29,086 nt of DNA, taken from a virus. The stretch's first letter is position 1. Every line of letters starts with the position of its first letter. The stretch lies in IMG/VR virus record IMGVR_UViG_3300035156_000213, positions 1 through 29,086 of that record. One strand, 5' to 3'. Shown here one piece after another: positions 1,732 through 14,308 of this stretch. A program made the position numbers and the translations under genes. Below the pieces are notes generated by a model. It made no database searches, was not told where the DNA came from, and saw only the letters and a program-made list of their open reading frames with translations.

Positions 1732-3411
1732 ATGCGCTTTTTCGCGGCCGAGCTGGAAACCTTCCGTCCGGGCGCGTCGGCGCCGACGATCTGGAACGCC
1801 TGGGGCGAACAGGCGATCGGCCAGCCCCAGACGGCCGGCGCCGTCGTGTCGCAAACCGCCCTGTTGCGCGTGTCTGATATCGGGTGGGTCACGCCCAACA
1901 CGGACCCTGCGGGGGCTGCGCTCGCCTATCCGCCCATCCTCAGCTCGGCCTTCGCCGTTGATCGCCAGCTTGACCTTGCCATAGACGGGCAGGGGGCGGG
2001 CGTGGCCTGGGGCGGCCTGCGCTTCCTTGATCCCGGCGGCACCACCTCCGGCGCTGTGGGCGATCGCAACGTTGACTCGCGCACCATTCGCATCCTCATG
2101 GGCAAGAAGACCTATGACCGAACGCGCGGGCTGTTCCTCAACCCGATGCGCGCGAGCATGTCGGAAGTTTTCGTCGGGCTGGCGAGGCAGTGGCGGCCCG
2201 ATGAAGACGGGCTTAATGTTCCCATGCGCGACGCGACGCATTGGCTCGAAAGGCAGTTGCAAACTGCAACTTATGCCGGGACCGGCGGCGCTGAAGGGCC
2301 TGCGGAGTTGAAGGGCAGGCCGAAGCCGAAACTTCGTGGCGGACTAACCGGCGCCTCGGTGCGGAACATCTCGCCCGTCCTCATTGATGCCACCGCCAAC
2401 ATCTGGCAGATCAGCGACGGCCCGGCCGGTATCGACGGCTCGCTAGGGCTGTACGAAAACGGCAAGTCGGTTTTCGGCTTCGCCGGCGAGACGACGGACC
2501 TCTGGACGGGCACCACGCCTGCCGGGCAGTTCCGCCAGGATCACTCGAAGGGCCTGTTTCAGCTCGGCTCGCCCGTCGCTGGGCAGATCACATGCGACGC
2601 GCACGGGCAGGTTCCAGGCGCCGGCGGTTACACCTTGAACTCAGCCGCGGCGTCGCTGGCCGTCTTCATGATGCAATATGACCTAGGCGTGCCGCTGGCG
2701 AACATTGATCTCCCGTCTTTCGCCGCGGTCACGACCGCGCTTGGCACGCTCAACAGTCAAGCGGGCTGGTACTGGGACGGCGCCAGCCCCACGACCGGCG
2801 CCGATGCCGTTGGGATGTTGATGGGCGGTGTCGGCGCGCGCATCGTGCCCGGTCGCAACGGCAAGCTGCGGGCGATGCTGCTACGCGCGCCGCAGGCGGC
2901 GAACATCATCGCCGGCTTCACCGCCGATCAGGTTGTCAGCATCGTGCGCGCCCCGTTGCCGGAGGGGCTTTCTCCGCCACCCTTCCGCATCCGCGTTGGG
3001 CACACGCACAACCATACCGTAATGAGCGCCGACCGGATCAGCGCGACGCTTCGCAACACTCCGCGGCAACAGTTCCTCGCCGAAGCTGACCGGTTCGCGT
3101 CGTGGGGCGGAACCCCCATCGTCAACGCCTATCTGCGCCCCAGCGATCCACCGCCGATGCCCACACCCATACTGACCGAGGGCAGCGCTAGCGTTGTCGC
3201 CGCGAACCTGGGCGCATTGTGGGGCATCACGACGGAGCGCAAGTTGTATCAAATCGAGATCCCGCTTGACGTTGGGCTGGCGCGCGACATAGGCGACACG
3301 GTGCGCTTGACCTATCCCATCCCGGATCTCGAAGCCGGCGCACCCGCGCTGATCGTGGGCGAACAGTTCAGATCTGAAAGCGACACGATCATGTTCACGG
3401 TGTTGGTATGA
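1732..3411 (+). CDS. Large tail tip / hub-like structural protein (559 aa)
   Basis: This is the first large protein after the tape measure and small tail genes, where siphoviruses usually place the distal tail or hub protein. The sequence is beta-rich and Gly/Ala-rich, with no membrane segment. Recognisable stretches include RTIRILMGKKTYDRTRGLFL near residue 115, MRDATHWLERQLQTATYAGT near residue 165, and a VPGRNGKLRAMLLRAP stretch near residue 375. From memory, this pattern occurs in large tail proteins of alphaproteobacterial prophages, where it seems to build the host-facing tip. No enzymatic motif was found. The start follows the preceding stop by two bases and the stop overlaps the next ATG. 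The structural role is inferred from context. Confidence 0.65.
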   Translation: MRFFAAELETFRPGASAPTIWNAWGEQAIGQPQTAGAVVSQTALLRVSDIGWVTPNTDPAGAALAYPPILSSAFAVDRQLDLAIDGQGAGVAWGGLRFLDPGGTTSGAVGDRNVDSRTIRILMGKKTYDRTRGLFLNPMRASMSEVFVGLARQWRPDEDGLNVPMRDATHWLERQLQTATYAGTGGAEGPAELKGRPKPKLRGGLTGASVRNISPVLIDATANIWQISDGPAGIDGSLGLYENGKSVFGFAGETTDLWTGTTPAGQFRQDHSKGLFQLGSPVAGQITCDAHGQVPGAGGYTLNSAAASLAVFMMQYDLGVPLANIDLPSFAAVTTALGTLNSQAGWYWDGASPTTGADAVGMLMGGVGARIVPGRNGKLRAMLLRAPQAANIIAGFTADQVVSIVRAPLPEGLSPPPFRIRVGHTHNHTVMSADRISATLRNTPRQQFLAEADRFASWGGTPIVNAYLRPSDPPPMPTPILTEGSASVVAANLGALWGITTERKLYQIEIPLDVGLARDIGDTVRLTYPIPDLEAGAPALIVGEQFRSESDTIMFTVLV

Positions 3412-4211
3412 GCAACGCTGTTTTCGGCATCCAAAACCGCGTCCTGACCGGCAACCTTGCGACGGGCTCGCACCTTGTCGGCTTGACTATCGGCAATCTG
3501 CAAGATCAGCAGCTTTCGGATGCGTCGAGCTGGCGCACGGCCGGGTCACTGTCATGGACAACGGGCGCCTATGCGCGATGCGAGGCCGTCGAGGGTGTTC
3601 CCGTGCCCTGGCGCGCCTGGGGGCTCTTCCGCACGAACCTGACACTCGCGGCGACGGTGCGGTTTCTCGCGGCGAATGAGGCGGGGTTCGCAACCGTCAC
3701 GTACAACAGCGGGTGGTTGCCCGCCGAGATCGTGCCCGGCATAGGCCAAGCGCTGCACATCTCGCCCGCCGACGTGATGGGGCAATACGCACGGATTGAC
3801 GTTGAAGATCCGACGAACCCGGATGGATTTATTTCGGTCGGCGGGGCCTACATGGGGCCGATCTGGCAACCGCGCGTCAACCTCTCGGAAGAAACTGCGA
3901 TCGCGCCCGAGCGTGTGCGCTCCATCGTGACCGCGCGGAGCGGCGCGAAGTATGTCACGCCGCAACACTATCTGCGGGGCTGGGATCTCGCCCACGACAA
4001 CCTCGCCGGTTCCGATGTGTGGGGCGAGTTCTGGCGCCTGGAACAAGTGGCGCAAAGCGGCGAAAACGTGCTGTTCGTGCCCGATCCGGCTTCGGCCGAT
4101 GCCACCGCGGAAGCCATCTTCGGGCTTATGGAGCTAACTTCCAACATCACATTCCAAACCCGCACGGGCACCCATCGGGCGTGGCGCGGCCGGATCACGG
4201 AAAGGCTGTAA
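3408..4211 (+). CDS. Tail tip / minor tail protein, beta-sandwich-like (267 aa)
   Basis: The ATG at 3408 overlaps the hub-like gene stop (ATGA). The protein is beta-rich, with alternating hydrophobic strands and many aromatic residues, for example SLSWTTGAYARCEA and RAWGLFRTNLTLAATVRFLA. It resembles jelly-roll phage appendage proteins. A conserved-looking C-terminal half contains SGENVLFVPD and ends TGTHRAWRGRITERL, a layout often seen in phage tail proteins of unknown detail. No catalytic motif is visible. Given its place between the hub and a fibre-like protein, it probably sits in the tail tip. The precise function is unknown. Confidence 0.6.
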   Translation: MSNAVFGIQNRVLTGNLATGSHLVGLTIGNLQDQQLSDASSWRTAGSLSWTTGAYARCEAVEGVPVPWRAWGLFRTNLTLAATVRFLAANEAGFATVTYNSGWLPAEIVPGIGQALHISPADVMGQYARIDVEDPTNPDGFISVGGAYMGPIWQPRVNLSEETAIAPERVRSIVTARSGAKYVTPQHYLRGWDLAHDNLAGSDVWGEFWRLEQVAQSGENVLFVPDPASADATAEAIFGLMELTSNITFQTRTGTHRAWRGRITERL

Positions 4212-4212
4212 A

Positions 4213-5103
4213 ATGCTCCGGAACTTAGTCAAGGAAACCGCGAACAACCCCGGCACCGGGTCAAGCGTCACGCTCGGCGGTGCGCTGGCGGGCTTCCGCA
4301 CCTTCGCGTCTGAGTTCACGACGGGCTCGCCGGTCTTCTACTTCATCACCGATGGTGCCCAGACGGAAGCGCAAGCCGGAACCCTGACCTCGGGGCCGCC
4401 TGCCATCTTGTCGCGCGGCACGCCGCTCTGGACCTCGACGGGTGTTCTTTCGCGCCTCAACTTCACCGGCGCCGTAACCGTGTTCTGCCAAGTGCCAGCC
4501 AACCGGCTGTTCTACGGCGACTCCGCCGGCAACTGGGACGGGCAGGCCCGGCGCTTGCGCAACATCGCCAAGGCCGCCGGCCCGGATGAAGCGATGCGCC
4601 GCGATCAAGTCGGATGGGAGCATATCAATACCAGCATCAACGCTGGCGCCGTGGGCGGTGTCTATTTCGTTATTCCGGCCGGGTATTCCCGCGTCCGTTT
4701 CGAGTTCCAGGATTTCGCGCCGACTCTCAACGCATGGGCTTTCGCGCGCTTCAATGCGGACGGCACCGGAAATCCGGACTTGTCGGCTTCGATTGCTTAC
4801 AACATTCAGTTTCTTACCGGCATTCCACAGTTTGAGTCAGAGCGCAGCGGCGCCGATAACTTCCTTCGCATGACTGGCGACATTCCCCAAAACACCACAT
4901 GCATGGGCGAGTTAGAACTTTCGTTGGTTGCAGGCATGACGCGGGCGCTTTACCGCACAACCTATCTGAACGTTGGCCCCACATCCGGTGCCGCATGGGG
5001 CGGTGGGCACTACAATAACAGGGCAGTGTCGGTTTTCTTCTACTACAGCAACGGCGCCAGTGTGGCGTTCCACCGCATCAAAATGTTGGGCAGCAAGGAT
5101 TGA
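4213..5103 (+). CDS. Tail fibre / receptor-binding-like protein (296 aa)
   Basis: The N-terminal 110 residues look like an anchoring module: VKETANNPGTGSSV, then NFTGAVTVFCQVPANRLFY. Phages use such modules to fix short fibres to the tail tip. The remaining part from about residue 135 is beta-rich, poor in charge and rich in Asn, Phe and Tyr, consistent with a trimeric or sugar-binding head. No chaperone or autoprotease motif is visible. The start is one base after the previous stop, and the stop overlaps the next ATG (TGATG). A receptor-binding role is inferred from position and composition; it could equally be another adsorption-complex protein. Confidence 0.55.
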   Translation: MLRNLVKETANNPGTGSSVTLGGALAGFRTFASEFTTGSPVFYFITDGAQTEAQAGTLTSGPPAILSRGTPLWTSTGVLSRLNFTGAVTVFCQVPANRLFYGDSAGNWDGQARRLRNIAKAAGPDEAMRRDQVGWEHINTSINAGAVGGVYFVIPAGYSRVRFEFQDFAPTLNAWAFARFNADGTGNPDLSASIAYNIQFLTGIPQFESERSGADNFLRMTGDIPQNTTCMGELELSLVAGMTRALYRTTYLNVGPTSGAAWGGGHYNNRAVSVFFYYSNGASVAFHRIKMLGSKD

Positions 5104-5544: not shown

Positions 5545-5826
5545 ATGTTTGAAGTCGTCGCCTGGAACGGTCAGACCGAGCTTGTTGTGGACGTGTTCGC
5601 CGAGTGGGGCAACGCCAACGATCGCGCGCGCGAGCTGGAAGCCAAGGATACGAAGTGCATCGCGTATTTCGCGCGGCGCGCCGAGCCTGCCTCGACGCGG
5701 ATCACGTTCAACGGCGAGATGACCGAGGCCGAGCAAGCCGAGTATGAAGCCGACTACCGGGCCGCGGCCGAGTGCGCGGCCGAGGATCGCGCCGAACGCG
5801 CGCTGTGCTCCGGCTACGGGAGCTGA
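5545..5826 (+). CDS. Small protein, first of a tandem paralogue pair (93 aa)
   Basis: It begins MFEVVAWNGQTELVVDVFAE and shares its N-terminal half of about 45 residues with the next gene (MFQVIAWNG at 5830): the V-x-AWNG, ELVVD-x-FAE and DRARELE/AT blocks match. The N-terminal half looks like an alpha-beta fold; the C-terminal part is acidic and Ala/Glu-rich (EYEADYRAAAECAAEDR). No known domain is recognised. It is the first gene after the TAGGGT promoter and its hairpin leader, with AGAGGAACC as a probable ribosome binding site. The pair looks like a local gene duplication with diverged C-termini. Confidence 0.65.
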   Translation: MFEVVAWNGQTELVVDVFAEWGNANDRARELEAKDTKCIAYFARRAEPASTRITFNGEMTEAEQAEYEADYRAAAECAAEDRAERALCSGYGS

Positions 5827-5829
5827 TCC

Positions 5830-6117
5830 ATGTTCCAAGTGATCGCCTGGAACGGCGTTAGCGAGCTTGTGGTGGACACCTTCGCCGAGCGCGGAGACGC
5901 CCAGGATCGCGCGCGCGAGCTGGCGACGCAGGATCAACACCACGTCGCTTACTCCGTACGGAAGCTGTGGCCGATTGCCGGGGCCACGTACCCCAACGGG
6001 GCCACGCTCCGCATCTATACCGGCAAGCCCCCGGCGATTTTGAACCGCTCAAACGACACGGATTTGGACCGCCGGTTTAGCGTGGATTGGATCAAGTTCA
6101 ACGTCGAGGATCGCTGA
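5830..6117 (+). CDS. Small protein, second of a tandem paralogue pair (95 aa)
   Basis: This is a paralogue of the upstream gene over the first 45 or so residues, ending near the HHVAYSVRK region. The C-terminus is different and basic-aromatic (LRIYTGKPPAILNRS, then DRRFSVDWIKFNVEDR). The gene starts three bases after the upstream stop and is followed by a strong intrinsic terminator at 6128-6159, so the two paralogues form one short transcription unit with the promoter at 5489. The function is unknown. Its place between virion genes would fit a moron-like accessory unit with its own promoter and terminator. Confidence 0.65.
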   Translation: MFQVIAWNGVSELVVDTFAERGDAQDRARELATQDQHHVAYSVRKLWPIAGATYPNGATLRIYTGKPPAILNRSNDTDLDRRFSVDWIKFNVEDR

Positions 6118-7644: not shown

Positions 7645-8637
7645 GTGACACAGCACAATGACCAGATCGTTCGTCTTTATGACACGATTTTCGATCGCGC
7701 CCCCGACACCGAAGGACTCGCGTTCTGGAACGGGGCCACCGATCGCGGCCTTAGCATGGGCGACATGGCGGATCTGTTCATCACCGCCCCTGAGTTTGCC
7801 CAGACCTACGGCCAGCCCGACAACGGCGCTTTTGTCCGCGAGATGTATGCCAACGTTCTCGATCGGCCGGGCGAAGCCGGCGGTGTGGAGTTTTGGACTC
7901 GTGTTCTGGACACGGGGCTTGCCGATCGCGGGCACATCGCTTTCGAGTTCAGCGAGAGCCCCGAGCATATCGCCCAGATGACGGCGCCGCCGCTCGGCCT
8001 GCCCCCTGGGCAGAGCGCGCCCAACCCCTCGCCCTTCCCGGAAGAGGCGACGATCCCGGAAAGCCAACTGCCCCCGCCAGCCCTCGGCTTGCCGCCGGGA
8101 CAGACGGCGCCTAACCCTTCGCCTATCCCTCCCGAGGCGCAGATACCGGAAAGCCAACTGCCTCCGGTCAGCTCGCCCCCGCCGTCCCGCATCATGCAAG
8201 GCACGGGCGGCAACGACGTGATGAACGGCGGCGCCGGCGACGACATAATCGCCGGGCTCGGCGGGCAGGACGTGATGACCGGCGGCGCTGGTTACAACGT
8301 CTTTACGTTCCCGATGCACACCTCGCAGATGAACGGCGACACCATCCATCGTTTCGACATGGACGGCAACGACGTGATTGACATTCACGGGTTGCAGGAT
8401 GGCGCCTTCACCTTCGCCCGGCCGGGCGCCCCGATGGAGTTCCTGGGCGAGATGGGCGTGGCCTGGGGGCGCGAGTTCGTCGGCGGCGGCACCCCGTCTT
8501 TCGGGTACGTCACCAATCGTCACCAGCCCACCCCCGAGCCCGATAACTGGGTGGTTTTCGATCTGAACGGCGACGCCCAGACCGACGTTACCCTGAACGT
8601 CTCGGGACAGCTCGGCGCCGACGATTTCTTGCTGTAG
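7645..8637 (+). CDS. DUF4214 - proline linker - RTX calcium-binding protein (330 aa)
   Basis: The start is GTG at 7645 with AAGGAAACAGG upstream. Residues 5-112 carry two DUF4214-like units (LYDTIFDRAPDTEGLAFW, then MYANVLDRPGEAGGVEFW), a module common in secreted RTX and surface proteins of alphaproteobacteria. Residues 116-174 form a proline-rich linker made of a 30-residue unit in two copies (GLPPGQSAPNPSP, GLPPGQTAPNPSP). Residues 186-216 are RTX nonapeptide repeats (GGNDVMNGGAGDDIIAG) that bind Ca2+ and fold outside the cell. The C-terminal 110 residues resemble the serralysin-type C-terminal domain (GDTIHRFDMDGNDVIDI). No protease motif is present. In a phage it may be an adsorption appendage or a partner of the next gene, which also has RTX repeats. 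It could instead be a protein exported by the infected host. Confidence 0.75.
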   Translation: MTQHNDQIVRLYDTIFDRAPDTEGLAFWNGATDRGLSMGDMADLFITAPEFAQTYGQPDNGAFVREMYANVLDRPGEAGGVEFWTRVLDTGLADRGHIAFEFSESPEHIAQMTAPPLGLPPGQSAPNPSPFPEEATIPESQLPPPALGLPPGQTAPNPSPIPPEAQIPESQLPPVSSPPPSRIMQGTGGNDVMNGGAGDDIIAGLGGQDVMTGGAGYNVFTFPMHTSQMNGDTIHRFDMDGNDVIDIHGLQDGAFTFARPGAPMEFLGEMGVAWGREFVGGGTPSFGYVTNRHQPTPEPDNWVVFDLNGDAQTDVTLNVSGQLGADDFLL

Positions 8638-8737: not shown

Positions 8738-8766
8738 GGCCAGCTCCGCAAGGGGCTGGCCTTTTT
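8738..8766 (+). terminator. Rho-independent terminator between promoter and spike gene
   Basis: The stem GGCCAGC/GCTGGCC, extended by CC/GG around a GCAA loop, is followed by five T residues (8762-8766). It ends transcripts from the RTX gene and would also stop a transcript started at the promoter just upstream, 26 bp before the next start codon. Confidence 0.75.
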
Positions 8767-8791: not shown

Positions 8792-11599
8792 ATGAGCGGC
8801 ACCACTCCGATTGACCAACAACGCGCCGACCGGTTGAACGCCTCCGCCACGACGATTGAGGAAAAGGTCGCCAGCATCGCGGAACAGCTCGGCGAGCTTG
8901 ACGCGGCGGCGGCCACGGTGCGGACGGTGGCGCAAGAGATCACCACGCCGCCCCCTGGCGTCATGTCCATCACGCTGACCTATCCCGATCCGTTCTACGT
9001 CGGCGCCAACTCCATCACGATCGACACCACGAACGTCGCCGAAGTCGGCATCCGTTTGCTGGACGCCAGCGGAAACCCACTCACGCAAGGCGCCGTCGAG
9101 AGTCTGGCCGTCCCAGACGCGGGCGTCACCATCCAATACAACATGCCGGTTGCCGGCGCGAAGATCCACGTTTACAGGCGGTCGGGCGGGGTCGCTGACT
9201 ATTCCGTTTCCGCTTACAGCGTTCTTTCCGTGGTGAAGCCGCGGCAGGTTTTCTTGACCTACCCGAACCCGTTTTACACGGGCGCGAACACCGTCAAGAT
9301 CACCACCACGAACGTTGATCGCGTCGGCGTTCTCGTGCAACGGCCCGATGGCACTTACGTTGCGGCACAGACCAAGGACAATCTACTTGTCCCGGCAGGC
9401 GGCCTTGATCTAGTCGTGGACGTGCCGGTTGTCGGCGCTAAAATCATGGTGTTCCCGAGCACGGGACCGGACGCGCGCGAGCTGAACCTTGCCGCGATCA
9501 CTGTTGCTGCGGCAGCGCGGCCAGTGCTCAACCGCAGCGTCACCATCACCTATCCGAACCCGTTCTACGTCGGCGTGCAAGAGATCACGGTTAACACCGT
9601 CAACGTTCCCGCCGTCTTTATCGAGGTGCAGAACTCGGCCAACGTTCCTTACCCCGATGCCGTGGTCGGGCAGGCAGTTCCCGCCGCCGGGCTGAAACAG
9701 CAAGTGAACGTCCGCGCGCCCGGCGACACCATCTTTGTCGCGGCCGGCACAGTGGACGCGAACGGCGCTATCACCCGCGACAACACGGTGTTCGCCCGCA
9801 CGGTCGCCGCAGCGGCACGCCCAGGGGCCACGGCCGGAGGCGATAGCATCACCGGGACCGCGGGCGATGATGTCATCAACGGCCTGGGCGGCAACGATAC
9901 GATCAACGGCGGCGGCGGGAATGACACCATCCGCGGCGGCCCCGGTGTGGATATCATGACTGGCGGCGCTGGTGCCAACGTGTTCGTTTTCGAGCCCGGC
10001 GACGGTGGCGATCCGCCCGTTCACGACCGCATCACGGATTTCAAGCTCGGGACGGACAAGCTCGAAGTTCCGCAGAGCTGGCCTCTTGAGTTCGAGGCCG
10101 ATGCGGCCGGCATTTGGGTGCATTACGGTCCGCACGAGAACTGGCACGATTGGGTGCAGTTGATGGGCGTTCAAACTCAGGACGCCAATCTGTTGCAGCT
10201 CAAATCGGGGACGCCGCCGCCGCCCGTGCCCGGCGGCCCGCTCAACGTGCTGGTCCGCGGGCAATCGAATGCCTTGCTCTTCGTTGATCGCGGCGGTGTC
10301 TGGACCTTCCGTGACAGACTCGCGGCGCTGACCGGGCGTGAAGTTCACATGCATTTCGCCTGGGGGCAAAATCAGGCGAACACCATCCACAGCGGCACCG
10401 GATGGATACACGAATGGATGAACGGCCTCGCGGCCGGAAATCTAGAGAATGATTTTTTGATGTTCCTCAACGGAATGAGCCCGGCAGCGAAGGCCGCGCC
10501 GTTCGTTGAGATCTGGATGCATAACGAGTACGATCAGGGGGCGGATATCACCGCCGCCAACTACGCCGCTTTGCATCGCGCCGAACGGCCGATGTGCTTG
10601 CAGGCGCTGGGGCTCACCGCAGCCAACCACCTCCGCGTGTTCGTGCCCGTGCGCTACGGGTTCGGCTCGAACTTCGAGTCTATCAAGAACGGCATGGAGT
10701 CGCTGGCCGCGGATGCTTCGTTCAACGCTCGCATGAGCTGGGCGGCTTACGGCGCCCGCATGGACGGCGGCCCGGTGCCCGAAGCCCACTTCGGCGATCA
10801 GGACACCCACGATGTAGGCTGGGCGCTGGCAAACGAGCTGGCGCCGCTGTTCAAGCAAGTCGTCACTCCGCCGCCGCCGCCGCCGCCCAACCCGAACGGC
10901 GCGCCCCGCAGCCCGCCGCCGGGCACGCCTGGGGTCTGGTTTGAAGACTTCGCCCGCCCGAACGGGCAGCACTGGGGCAAGAATATCGACGGGAACGATA
11001 TCTTTTTCTGGGGCTCCGGCGGCAATCTGGAAGGCGACAGCACCTTTACCATTCGCTGGCATGGCGGTTCCGGCGGCTGGATGACGGATTTTTGTATCGA
11101 GGGGCAACGCCAGATCGGTATGCCTAACGGCTACTGGGAATGCCGGGCGATCCTGTACGGCTGGGGTGTCGGCAGCGGTTCCGGTCCGTGCATCCTGGCG
11201 TGGCCCGGCGACTCCCATTGGAACTCGGTTGACTACGCGCCGGATTGGCAATCGCGCGAAGTGGACTTCGGCGAGATCTGGGGTAACGAACAGACTATCT
11301 ACATGGCGCCGCACTGGACGGACCGTAACAGGAGCGCCAACAACGGGTTCAGTATCTTCTTTGTGCCGAAACCCTTCGATAACTTCCAGTATCACGTCTA
11401 TGGTGGCGTGTTGCTAAACGATCGGATCATCTTCACCGTAGATGGTGACGTGATCGGCGTGGAAGAGAACCACGGCGCGCCCGACCTCGCGGGCGGCGGT
11501 GTGAACCGGACGCACGGGTTCATGAACGGGAGCCCCGAGACGCACATTCGGGTTGACTGGTTGAAGTGGACCCCCGCGCATCTGGTTACTTACGTCTAG
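8792..11599 (+). CDS. Multidomain tail spike: Ig-like repeats, RTX, SGNH esterase, GH16 hydrolase (935 aa)
   Basis: Domains in order: a helical or coiled-coil start (1-55); three related beta-domains of about 95 residues, each opening with TYPxPFYxG (63, 156, 253); RTX Ca2+-binding repeats (350-398, GGNDTINGGGGNDTIRGG) with a serralysin-like tail; an SGNH/sialate-esterase-like domain with RGQSNA (Ser492) and QDTHD (Asp671, His673); a proline linker (about 690-714); and a GH16-like domain (about 715-935) with EVDFGE at 823-828, which matches the family's ExDxxE catalytic motif (Glu823 nucleophile, Glu828 acid/base expected). Family knowledge predicts removal of acyl groups plus endo-cleavage of a beta-glucan- or galactan-type polymer. 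I infer a virion depolymerase that clears host capsule or exopolysaccharide. It follows a terminator and the other RTX gene, and ends at a terminator. A secreted, non-virion enzyme is the alternative. Confidence 0.8.
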   Translation: MSGTTPIDQQRADRLNASATTIEEKVASIAEQLGELDAAAATVRTVAQEITTPPPGVMSITLTYPDPFYVGANSITIDTTNVAEVGIRLLDASGNPLTQGAVESLAVPDAGVTIQYNMPVAGAKIHVYRRSGGVADYSVSAYSVLSVVKPRQVFLTYPNPFYTGANTVKITTTNVDRVGVLVQRPDGTYVAAQTKDNLLVPAGGLDLVVDVPVVGAKIMVFPSTGPDARELNLAAITVAAAARPVLNRSVTITYPNPFYVGVQEITVNTVNVPAVFIEVQNSANVPYPDAVVGQAVPAAGLKQQVNVRAPGDTIFVAAGTVDANGAITRDNTVFARTVAAAARPGATAGGDSITGTAGDDVINGLGGNDTINGGGGNDTIRGGPGVDIMTGGAGANVFVFEPGDGGDPPVHDRITDFKLGTDKLEVPQSWPLEFEADAAGIWVHYGPHENWHDWVQLMGVQTQDANLLQLKSGTPPPPVPGGPLNVLVRGQSNALLFVDRGGVWTFRDRLAALTGREVHMHFAWGQNQANTIHSGTGWIHEWMNGLAAGNLENDFLMFLNGMSPAAKAAPFVEIWMHNEYDQGADITAANYAALHRAERPMCLQALGLTAANHLRVFVPVRYGFGSNFESIKNGMESLAADASFNARMSWAAYGARMDGGPVPEAHFGDQDTHDVGWALANELAPLFKQVVTPPPPPPPNPNGAPRSPPPGTPGVWFEDFARPNGQHWGKNIDGNDIFFWGSGGNLEGDSTFTIRWHGGSGGWMTDFCIEGQRQIGMPNGYWECRAILYGWGVGSGSGPCILAWPGDSHWNSVDYAPDWQSREVDFGEIWGNEQTIYMAPHWTDRNRSANNGFSIFFVPKPFDNFQYHVYGGVLLNDRIIFTVDGDVIGVEENHGAPDLAGGGVNRTHGFMNGSPETHIRVDWLKWTPAHLVTYV

Positions 11600-13103: not shown

Positions 13104-13934
13104 TTAAACCTTCGTGTTTTCGATCGCATCCAATACCAGAAAGTCGCTCGCGTGTTCTGACATGAGCATGTCATACGAGACGTAAAAATAACCGTTGATC
13201 TGGTTGTTGACACCCCAGCTATTCAGACAGAACGCAAGGCGTTCGTCATCGTCATAGTCCATGGCGACGACATAGTGACCGCCATACTTGTGTTCCTGCC
13301 CGACCGGCGGCCGAAGCACGTTGACCGGCTTTCCCGTCTCCCGATCGTAAAAGCTTTCATACACCAGAAAGCCGAACCCGACCGGTTTCCGCATGGAGAT
13401 TGCCGCGCGGATATCCGACATGGTGCGCGGGACGAACTTATAGCCTTCGCACTGCCGTATCGAGGCGTTCTTTACAACGTAGTCGGTTGGCTCTTTCTGC
13501 GAACGGTGTCCAGCAGGGTATACCCAGTCCGGACCGGCGGGCGCACCGCTGTAATCCCAAATGCTTTCGATCGGCGCGCCAAGTTTATTGATGACTTTCG
13601 CGGCGTCGCGCGGAAAGCAGCCGGTGTCGCTTCGCTGCCAGCCCTGGATCTTGCGCGCATGATAATAAATGAACGAGCGCGAAAACATGAGTGCCGTTTT
13701 GTAGCCCGCCACCTTGCGGTAAAAGGCATACTGCGCCGCGATGCCGTTCCCGACGCACGAGCCCTCTTGCATCTGATCGTAAGGCGCGTGCGGATGGTCC
13801 TGACTGTTCTTGAACACCCTCGGCGCCGTCTTCATCACCGATCGCGGCGCGCGAAAGATCTCATCTAGCGCATCGCGCTCTTGCGGGCGCCAGCCGAACC
13901 GGCGGTTGTTTGGGTGACGTTCTAGAACCGGCAT
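13104..13934 (-). CDS. Papain-like cysteine protease (C1-type), phage-encoded (276 aa)
   Basis: The catalytic set of the papain family is readable: Gln54 and Cys60 in QMQEGSCVGN, His220 in KYGGHYVVAMDYDD, and Asn238 in CLNSWG. The spacing and the GH-YVV-A and NSWG motifs are typical for the bacterial C1 peptidase branch. There is no signal peptide or long propeptide (about 50 residues precede the Cys region), so it acts in the cytoplasm unless released at lysis. Its start overlaps the 3' end of the nuclease gene by 13 bases, so the two are co-translated. In phages such proteases are uncommon. Possible jobs are virion maturation, attack on a host protein, or digestion of proteins during lysis. 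The family is fairly sure, the target unknown. Confidence 0.8.
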   Translation of the reverse strand: MPVLERHPNNRRFGWRPQERDALDEIFRAPRSVMKTAPRVFKNSQDHPHAPYDQMQEGSCVGNGIAAQYAFYRKVAGYKTALMFSRSFIYYHARKIQGWQRSDTGCFPRDAAKVINKLGAPIESIWDYSGAPAGPDWVYPAGHRSQKEPTDYVVKNASIRQCEGYKFVPRTMSDIRAAISMRKPVGFGFLVYESFYDRETGKPVNVLRPPVGQEHKYGGHYVVAMDYDDDERLAFCLNSWGVNNQINGYFYVSYDMLMSEHASDFLVLDAIENTKV

Positions 13935-14308
13935 GTGCGTTTCTCTCCGAAGTTCGGAACGCCAAGTTCCTCGGTTATGAGAATATCAGCAACGGATCGG
14001 CCGCTCGGCCGATGCGTCACGACGGCGAGAGTCCGGCCGCGGGCATCCTTGCCGATGCCGCGGAACCGCACACCCTCGGCCGCGAGCTGGCGCGTGCGCT
14101 CGGCGGCGCGCTCGCCCGCGGTGCGCTCGGCGTCGCGGCGCGGACCAACGGGGCAGAGGAAGTTTTGCGTTTCGGCAGCGTCCACACCGTAGATCCGATA
14201 CACCACGCGCCGATAAGAGATCGTGTCGCCGTCAATGGCGCGCGGCTCGCCCTGGGCGAAGGCTGGCCCGGCGGCCAGCAACGCTACAATGCCCAGAGCG
14301 AGGCGCAT
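13922..14308 (-). CDS. Secreted thermonuclease-like (SNase family) nuclease (128 aa)
   Basis: A signal peptide covers residues 1-18 (MRLALGIVALLAAGPAFA, cut before QG). The mature part has the staphylococcal nuclease signatures: AIDGDTI, YRIYGVDAAE (Arg38, Asp43, Glu46) and DARGRTLAVV (Arg90/Arg92). These contribute to Ca2+ binding and phosphodiester cleavage in the family. At 110 or so mature residues it is short but complete. Its ribosome site TAGGAG lies just upstream, and the next gene (the protease) overlaps its end. An exported nuclease in a phage lysis operon could degrade extracellular or released DNA, or act in the periplasm against incoming rival DNA. Both are inferences. Confidence 0.8.
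   Translation of the reverse strand: MRLALGIVALLAAGPAFAQGEPRAIDGDTISYRRVVYRIYGVDAAETQNFLCPVGPRRDAERTAGERAAERTRQLAAEGVRFRGIGKDARGRTLAVVTHRPSGRSVADILITEELGVPNFGEKRTCRF

Follow-up and report, generated by a model that had tools for sequence, protein, structure and literature searches.

A 935-residue phage protein that joins RTX repeats with an SGNH/SASA-like domain and a GH16 domain downstream of a tail module

The viral record IMGVR_UViG_3300035156_000213, 29,086 bases of DNA that are possibly a fragment and are called here, in their whole length, the window, contains downstream of a phage tail module a gene for a protein of 935 residues. Computational analysis finds in this chain, from the N-terminus, a coiled coil, three related beta-sandwich repeats, RTX repeats with a cap, a proline-rich linker, an esterase-like domain, a second proline-rich linker and a GH16 domain (Table 1). 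A preliminary description of the same DNA had proposed one modular gene with Ig-like spacers, RTX repeats, an SGNH-like esterase and a C-terminal GH16 domain. The open reading frame (ORF) was found as claimed, and so were the motifs TYP[ND]PFY (starting at residues 63, 156 and 253), GQSNA (490, with Ser492), DTH (671-673) and EVDFGE (823-828). The domain set was likewise borne out, while the catalytic role given to Asp671 and His673 was not (see below).

Table 1. Features of the gene for the 935-residue protein and of its surroundings in the window
Feature	Residues	Position	Strand	Basis
Whole gene	935 aa	8792-11599	+	single ORF; codon-position G+C alike in its parts
Coiled coil, probable multimerisation stalk	12-50	8825-8941	+	heptad-like hydrophobic spacing
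Beta-sandwich repeat 1	TYPDPFY at 63	8957-9235	+	alignment of repeats
Beta-sandwich repeat 2 (the one modelled)	TYPNPFY at 156	9236-9520	+	pLDDT 85.4; VIA-align Z <= 8.8
Beta-sandwich repeat 3	TYPNPFY at 253	9524-9814	+	alignment of repeats
RTX calcium-binding repeats and serralysin-type cap	about 347-472	9830-10207	+	Pfam PF00353, PF08548
SGNH/SASA-like esterase domain	about 482-692	10235-10867	+	relative at 33%, 7e-18; SASA profile
Esterase blocks I GQSN (Ser492); II SGT; III WMHNEYD; V His	490-493; 534-536; 575-581; 666			
GH16 domain, catalytic ExDxxE at 823-828 (11258-11275)	about 716-932	10937-11587	+	profile methods
Neighbouring gene, DUF4214 and RTX		7645-8637	+	Pfam; RTX block related to the 935-residue protein
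Terminator-like hairpin with T run, between the upstream RTX gene and the 935-residue gene		8738-8761	+	10-pair stem
Tail protein 1		1732-3411	+	39% identity to Synechococcus phage MinM1
Tail protein 2		3408-4211	+	35% identity to Synechococcus phage MinM1
Fibre		4213-5103	+	47% identity over first 99 aa to Synechococcus phage MinM1

The C-terminal domain is, by profile comparison, a member of GH16, a family characterised by a beta-jelly-roll fold and by retaining cleavage of beta-1,3/1,4 glycans. The proposal of such a domain is thus confirmed by profile methods, though the query alone scores 13.2 bits, short of the 22 that Pfam requires (E 0.063, with the match covering the active site). The GH16 Pfam match in the window is at 8.7e-4, and a phmmer search of the domain against solved structures gave no match up to E 10. 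A tblastn search of 72,556 plasmid records at E <= 1 returned three records, all annotated as GH16: one encodes a protein of Rhodovastum atsumiense, WP_239002821.1 (28.7% identity, 3e-3), which itself exceeds the Pfam cut-off (23 against 22 bits), and two encode Hymenobacter proteins (0.2-0.3). When the query and the Rhodovastum protein were compared as a two-row alignment with a profile of six GH16 members, representing all 6 loci retrieved, the probability was 96.6% (E 4.8e-10) and the score 72.7, where 200 column shuffles reached at most 24.1; part of this strength comes from the Rhodovastum row. The query alone gave a probability of 31% (P 5e-4) and 12.1 bits against a maximum of 5.5 in 2,000 shuffles. 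Furthermore, the best 22 of 25 matches to the two-row profile in the PDB are GH16 enzymes, 10 of them at E <= 0.01 and the other 12 between 0.012 and 0.15; the last three are not GH16. EVDFGE aligns with ELDMAE of the Rhodovastum relative and with EIDIME of the GH16 set, and ExDxxE is intact in both proteins. Of 289 genomes searched with the same two-row profile, 7 gave a match at E <= 0.01; two matching frames, both in one genome, are GH16 by Pfam and have no RTX match. Ten viral stretches carrying the pattern E-x-DFGE-x-W were also considered and rejected, none being GH16-like when the translations were judged by eye.

The middle domain is SGNH/SASA-like as judged from its alignments, and it is called so, rather than filed as a family member, because its Asp is not in the usual place. 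Its only match among the plasmid records is a second R. atsumiense protein, WP_250265872.1 (33% identity, 7e-18), whose gene lies on plasmid RHOApa near genes for a glycosyltransferase, a polysaccharide pyruvyl transferase and a DUF4038 protein. The annotated start of this relative falls after the GQSN motif (L031:7884-9575), and the open frame extends upstream without an ATG, so that the true start is uncertain. The alignment conserves GQSNALL, SGT, W-HNEYD and AH. Asp671 is conserved as well, while His673 is replaced by Ser; His666 is conserved and falls where SASA proteins have their catalytic His. The catalytic pair Asp671/His673 was rejected on these grounds, and this part of the originally proposed triad is probably wrong. 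His666, not His673, is the likely catalytic histidine, an assignment that draws on a thin alignment with one close relative. The QGE of SASA proteins is absent; SGT and HNE occupy the block II and block III positions and are conserved in the relative.

The esterase-like call is further supported by a profile of SASA proteins. For this profile 15 of 36 SASA loci, mostly compact ones, were tried; 11 had both GQSN and [QH][GN]E, and one (L038) was omitted, leaving 10 sequences. Comparison with hhalign gave 74.7% (E 2.6e-5) and a local score of 40.7, where 200 shuffles reached at most 22.6; this local match comprises 69 columns around block III. A forced global alignment places GGT-x-I on GTG-x-I (535-539), QGE on HNE and CHF on AHF; its superposition of GQSN on GQSN is built in, the segments having been picked by GQSN and cut 15 residues before it, and is no evidence. 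The Pfam families SASA and GDSL_2 had no match in the window. A two-row esterase profile found in the PDB only 3dc7 (E 0.24), which was not used, and among 385 genomes one weak match (E 0.0053).

The RTX repeats are certain: PF00353 matches the whole protein at 1.4e-15, which passes the cut-off, and the domain alone at 1.2e-19, and PF08548 matches the whole protein at 2.3e-4. The GGxGxDxUx nonapeptide repeats of RTX proteins (PF00353) are present. This segment is internal in the chain, the C-terminus being the GH16 domain. An RTX block is common to this protein and to the product of the gene upstream (60% identity over 40 aa), and two RTX genes thus stand side by side on the phage (7645-8637 and 8792-11599). 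No relative of the DUF4214-RTX protein was found among phages.

The N-terminal coiled coil is a feature absent from the preliminary description. Residues 12-50 contain 12 consecutive hydrophobic positions spaced by 3-4 residues, a run reached by 1 in 20,000 shuffles when Ala is counted and falling to 5 positions without Ala. The three repeats that follow span residues 56-341, and identity to repeat 2 is 35% for repeat 1 and 38% for repeat 3. With the other two as its alignment, repeat 2 was modelled as a seven-strand beta-sandwich; the rows returned by VIA-align comprise macroglobulin, FN3, envelope-protein and other beta-sandwich domains, with the highest Z for TEP1/complement macroglobulin domains and 7.6 for an FN3 design, though by the tool's own warning Z of 7-8 is commonplace, and absence of a family from the rows does not count against it. 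A Foldseek search with repeat 2 gave no match at E <= 0.001. Three related repeats are present as described, but because of this Foldseek result and the commonness of such Z values the term "Ig-like" is valid only at the level of fold. No relative of the spacer region was found among plasmids and phages, nor of the TYPxPFY pattern in the viral contig collection.

No relative of the whole protein or of its enzyme domains was found among phages by tblastn or in the viral contig collection, where the two-row esterase alignment was used as well. The GH16 domain had no relative in the genome contig collection, and neither enzyme domain had one in 385 genomes of the class of Aquamicrobium; single-sequence searches of contig collections reach close relatives only. 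No full-length relative and no record combining the two enzyme domains turned up in the phage, plasmid, viral contig and genome contig collections searched. Both R. atsumiense relatives carry RTX-like segments when read by eye; in the esterase relative the Pfam score is 13.1 bits, below the cut-off, and in the GH16 relative Pfam does not report them. The GH16 gene lies on RHOApe, which looks like a phage-plasmid because it carries phage terminase, portal and tail sheath genes together with RepA (L032 / L033 / L034). From these similarities we infer that Acetobacteraceae and their phages hold a pool of RTX-linked exopolysaccharide enzymes, out of which the parts of this gene were joined. The host is probably an alphaproteobacterium; an Acetobacteraceae-like one is a guess from the two nearest relatives.

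The 935-residue gene is placed as looked for in a tailspike or depolymerase gene, downstream of the tail module. This module (1732-5103) also matches phrog_8917 and phrog_8610. Relatives of tail proteins 1 and 2 with 23-27% identity are found in Aquamicrobium and Rhizobium elements, and a further one of tail protein 1 in a Skermanella plasmid. An alphaproteobacterial metagenome-assembled genome encodes relatives of both, that of tail protein 2 covering only 44 aa, and tail protein 1 has a 28% match in a Pseudomonas juntendi plasmid. No tail protein relative was found in the viral contig collection. Downstream of the related tail module, Skermanella rosea pSR-4 has a gene for a GH28-related protein of 891 aa that contains a pectate-lyase-like domain; in the Rhizobium rhizoryzae plasmid the product is a nucleoside hydrolase with a fused LamG-type (ConA-like) domain (L065:6010-7677). 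In Aquamicrobium, four ORFs close to the module or past it have no enzyme match in Pfam, and the contig of the metagenome-assembled genome stops about 2 kb past its tail module. The Aquamicrobium element also encodes, adjoining its tail module, a 600-aa protein on the minus strand (L005:14176-15978) with NPDV/HGR-type and RTX-like repeats seen by eye (no Pfam match), and its tape measure protein bears a YLANNPDV motif. Phage tailspikes usually, though not universally, have a trimeric beta-helix body; the 935-residue protein has no Pfam match to a beta-helix or pectate lyase.

Elsewhere in the window, tandem small paralogous genes lie at 5545-5826 and 5830-6117 (53% identical over 57 aa). On the minus strand, 13104-13934 is a gene for a papain-like (C1) cysteine protease (Pfam 7.9e-6) and 13922-14308 a small ORF that by eye resembles a secreted staphylococcal-nuclease-like protein.

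The product is most likely a polysaccharide-attacking enzyme with a receptor-binding or an accessory role. We favour, at a probability of about 0.5, a multimodular enzyme of a tailed phage that attacks host exopolysaccharide. The coiled coil would multimerise the chain, and the three beta-sandwich spacers would keep the enzyme domains at a distance from it. The RTX beta-roll would fold on meeting extracellular calcium. The SGNH/SASA-like esterase, with Ser492 and probably His666, would strip acyl groups from the exopolysaccharide, and the GH16 domain, with E823, D825 and E828, would cleave its beta-glycan backbone. From this arrangement we infer catalysis, calcium-dependent folding, a polymer that is the common substrate of both domains, and a place for the protein in the virion, where it would serve for receptor binding or as a spike. 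By analogy, the location 3' of the tail module supports a surface-attacking role and does not prove it. That an O-acylated exopolysaccharide is attacked in two steps is plausible, and in principle there is a precedent in rhizobia, where acetyl and succinyl groups are reported to alter the cleavage of succinoglycan by the glycanases ExoK and ExsH (PMC1403797; PMC4916376). That a single chain performs both steps, as an esterase and a beta-glycanase on a calcium-gated RTX stalk with deacylation opening the backbone for GH16, is a tentative extension.

Several observations weigh against the favoured interpretation. The nearest relatives of the esterase and GH16 domains are separate proteins of one species, R. 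atsumiense. The esterase domain matches no curated family in Pfam, NCBIfam or PHROGs; alone it barely exceeds its shuffles (4.4 bits against a maximum of 3.1 in 2,000, E 2.1), and the two-sequence SASA test is weak (probability 4.4%, score 25.4 against a shuffle maximum of 22.3). No Asp stands three residues before His666, where the DxxH of block V would have it. A single-sequence structure model of residues 476-935 has a mean pLDDT of 33.6 and is unusable for judging the GH16 jelly roll or the triad geometry. The N-terminus has no match among the proteins of the neighbouring phage modules compared, with no virion anchor recognised there, and the hairpin, unlisted in the preliminary description, sets the gene apart from those upstream, although it is a weak signal (7 such sites in the scan against a mean of 5.2 in shuffles). 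Another large enzyme lies 3' of the module in only 2 of the 6 elements with a relative of tail protein 1, and MinM1 and P. juntendi have by annotation no polysaccharide enzyme except of the lysis type.

Some of these points lead to other explanations. The strong divergence of both enzyme domains, the lack of the DxxH acid and of the SASA QGE, and the LamG-type ConA-like domain of the Rhizobium protein could mean that one or both domains are catalytically dead and act as carbohydrate-binding domains of a fibre. This is unlikely, given the intact ExDxxE of GH16 in the 935-residue protein and its relative and the conservation of Ser492, SGT, HNE and His666 in the esterase relative. The hairpin and the want of a recognised fibre anchor also fit an accessory ("moron"-type) or lysis-released enzyme. 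Its expression would be separate from that of the structural genes, and once exported or set free it would loosen biofilm or exopolysaccharide in the host population. RTX modules are a usual feature of proteins secreted by type I systems, whose signals are C-terminal. A second RTX gene adjoins, the R. atsumiense GH16 gene lies on its phage-plasmid among small genes at least 11 kb from the annotated portal and terminase, and ExsH is a PrsDE substrate (PMC1403797). Against this, the coiled-coil stalk and the spacers are spike-like, the related tail module of Skermanella is followed by a pectate-lyase-like depolymerase, the DNA immediately 5' of the 935-residue gene shows no promoter-like site, and its RTX segment is internal, not at the C-terminus; an accessory enzyme is possible but doubtful. 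A chimeric assembly, or a bacterial gene misjoined to a phage contig, might be suspected where no phage record matches the protein and the best relatives are annotated on bacterial plasmids. It is highly improbable: the G+C content at third codon positions is 0.77-0.83 across the five parts of the gene, compared with 0.80 in the tail gene, on which ground a chimeric contig was rejected; one of the two relatives lies on the phage-plasmid with terminase, portal, tail sheath and RepA genes; and the window holds tail genes upstream and replication genes downstream in one record.

Phage receptor-binding enzymes are mostly described as depolymerases or deacetylases, one or the other. The SGNH/SASA tail fibres of Acinetobacter and Klebsiella phages resemble the 935-residue protein in carrying an esterase domain on a phage receptor-binding protein. 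SGNH domains occur in Acinetobacter phage tail fibres, some of which are reported to have deacetylase or esterase activity (PMC11058221). Esterase activity is confirmed for two receptor-binding proteins of Klebsiella prophages with SGNH domains (PMC13123978), and such domains are also found in predicted Curtobacterium prophage depolymerases (PMC9862828). Unlike the present case, GH16 or RTX in the same chain is not named for the Acinetobacter and Klebsiella fibres in the available text (PMC11058221; PMC13123978); for fLi-Aba02/03 it names a ConA-like lectin/glucanase domain and leaves ambiguous which of two fibre proteins carries it (PMC11058221). Within a limited paper collection searched by titles and abstract openings, no phage GH16-esterase-RTX fusion was found. 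If the favoured interpretation is true, a chain in which both activities follow a calcium-dependent RTX fold would mean that phages couple deacylation with depolymerisation, and the protein offers a directly testable model for breaching O-acylated exopolysaccharides.

The Skermanella rosea pSR-4 protein is comparable in length and in its place downstream of a related tail module, but its pectate-lyase-like domain belongs to an unrelated family. ExsH of Sinorhizobium meliloti is made up of RTX and GH16 parts and is not known to have an esterase domain. Like the enzyme proposed here, it acts as a secreted glycanase on an O-acylated exopolysaccharide whose acyl groups alter cleavage, whereas it is bacterial and secreted by PrsDE (PMC1403797). 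The closest parallels are in R. atsumiense, and the interpretation, if true, would point to the RTX-linked enzymes of Acetobacteraceae and their phage-plasmids as a source of parts. WP_250265872.1 of RHOApa shares the esterase (31-33% identity; 31% over 234 aligned positions) and has a sub-threshold RTX-like C-terminus, but no GH16 match. WP_239002821.1 of RHOApe is only 363 aa as annotated, lacks esterase and spacers and has its RTX-like part at the C-terminus; nevertheless its GH16 domain shows 29% identity across 132 aa, has an identical ExDxxE pattern and is joined to RTX/serralysin-cap-like segments, seen by eye and without a Pfam match.

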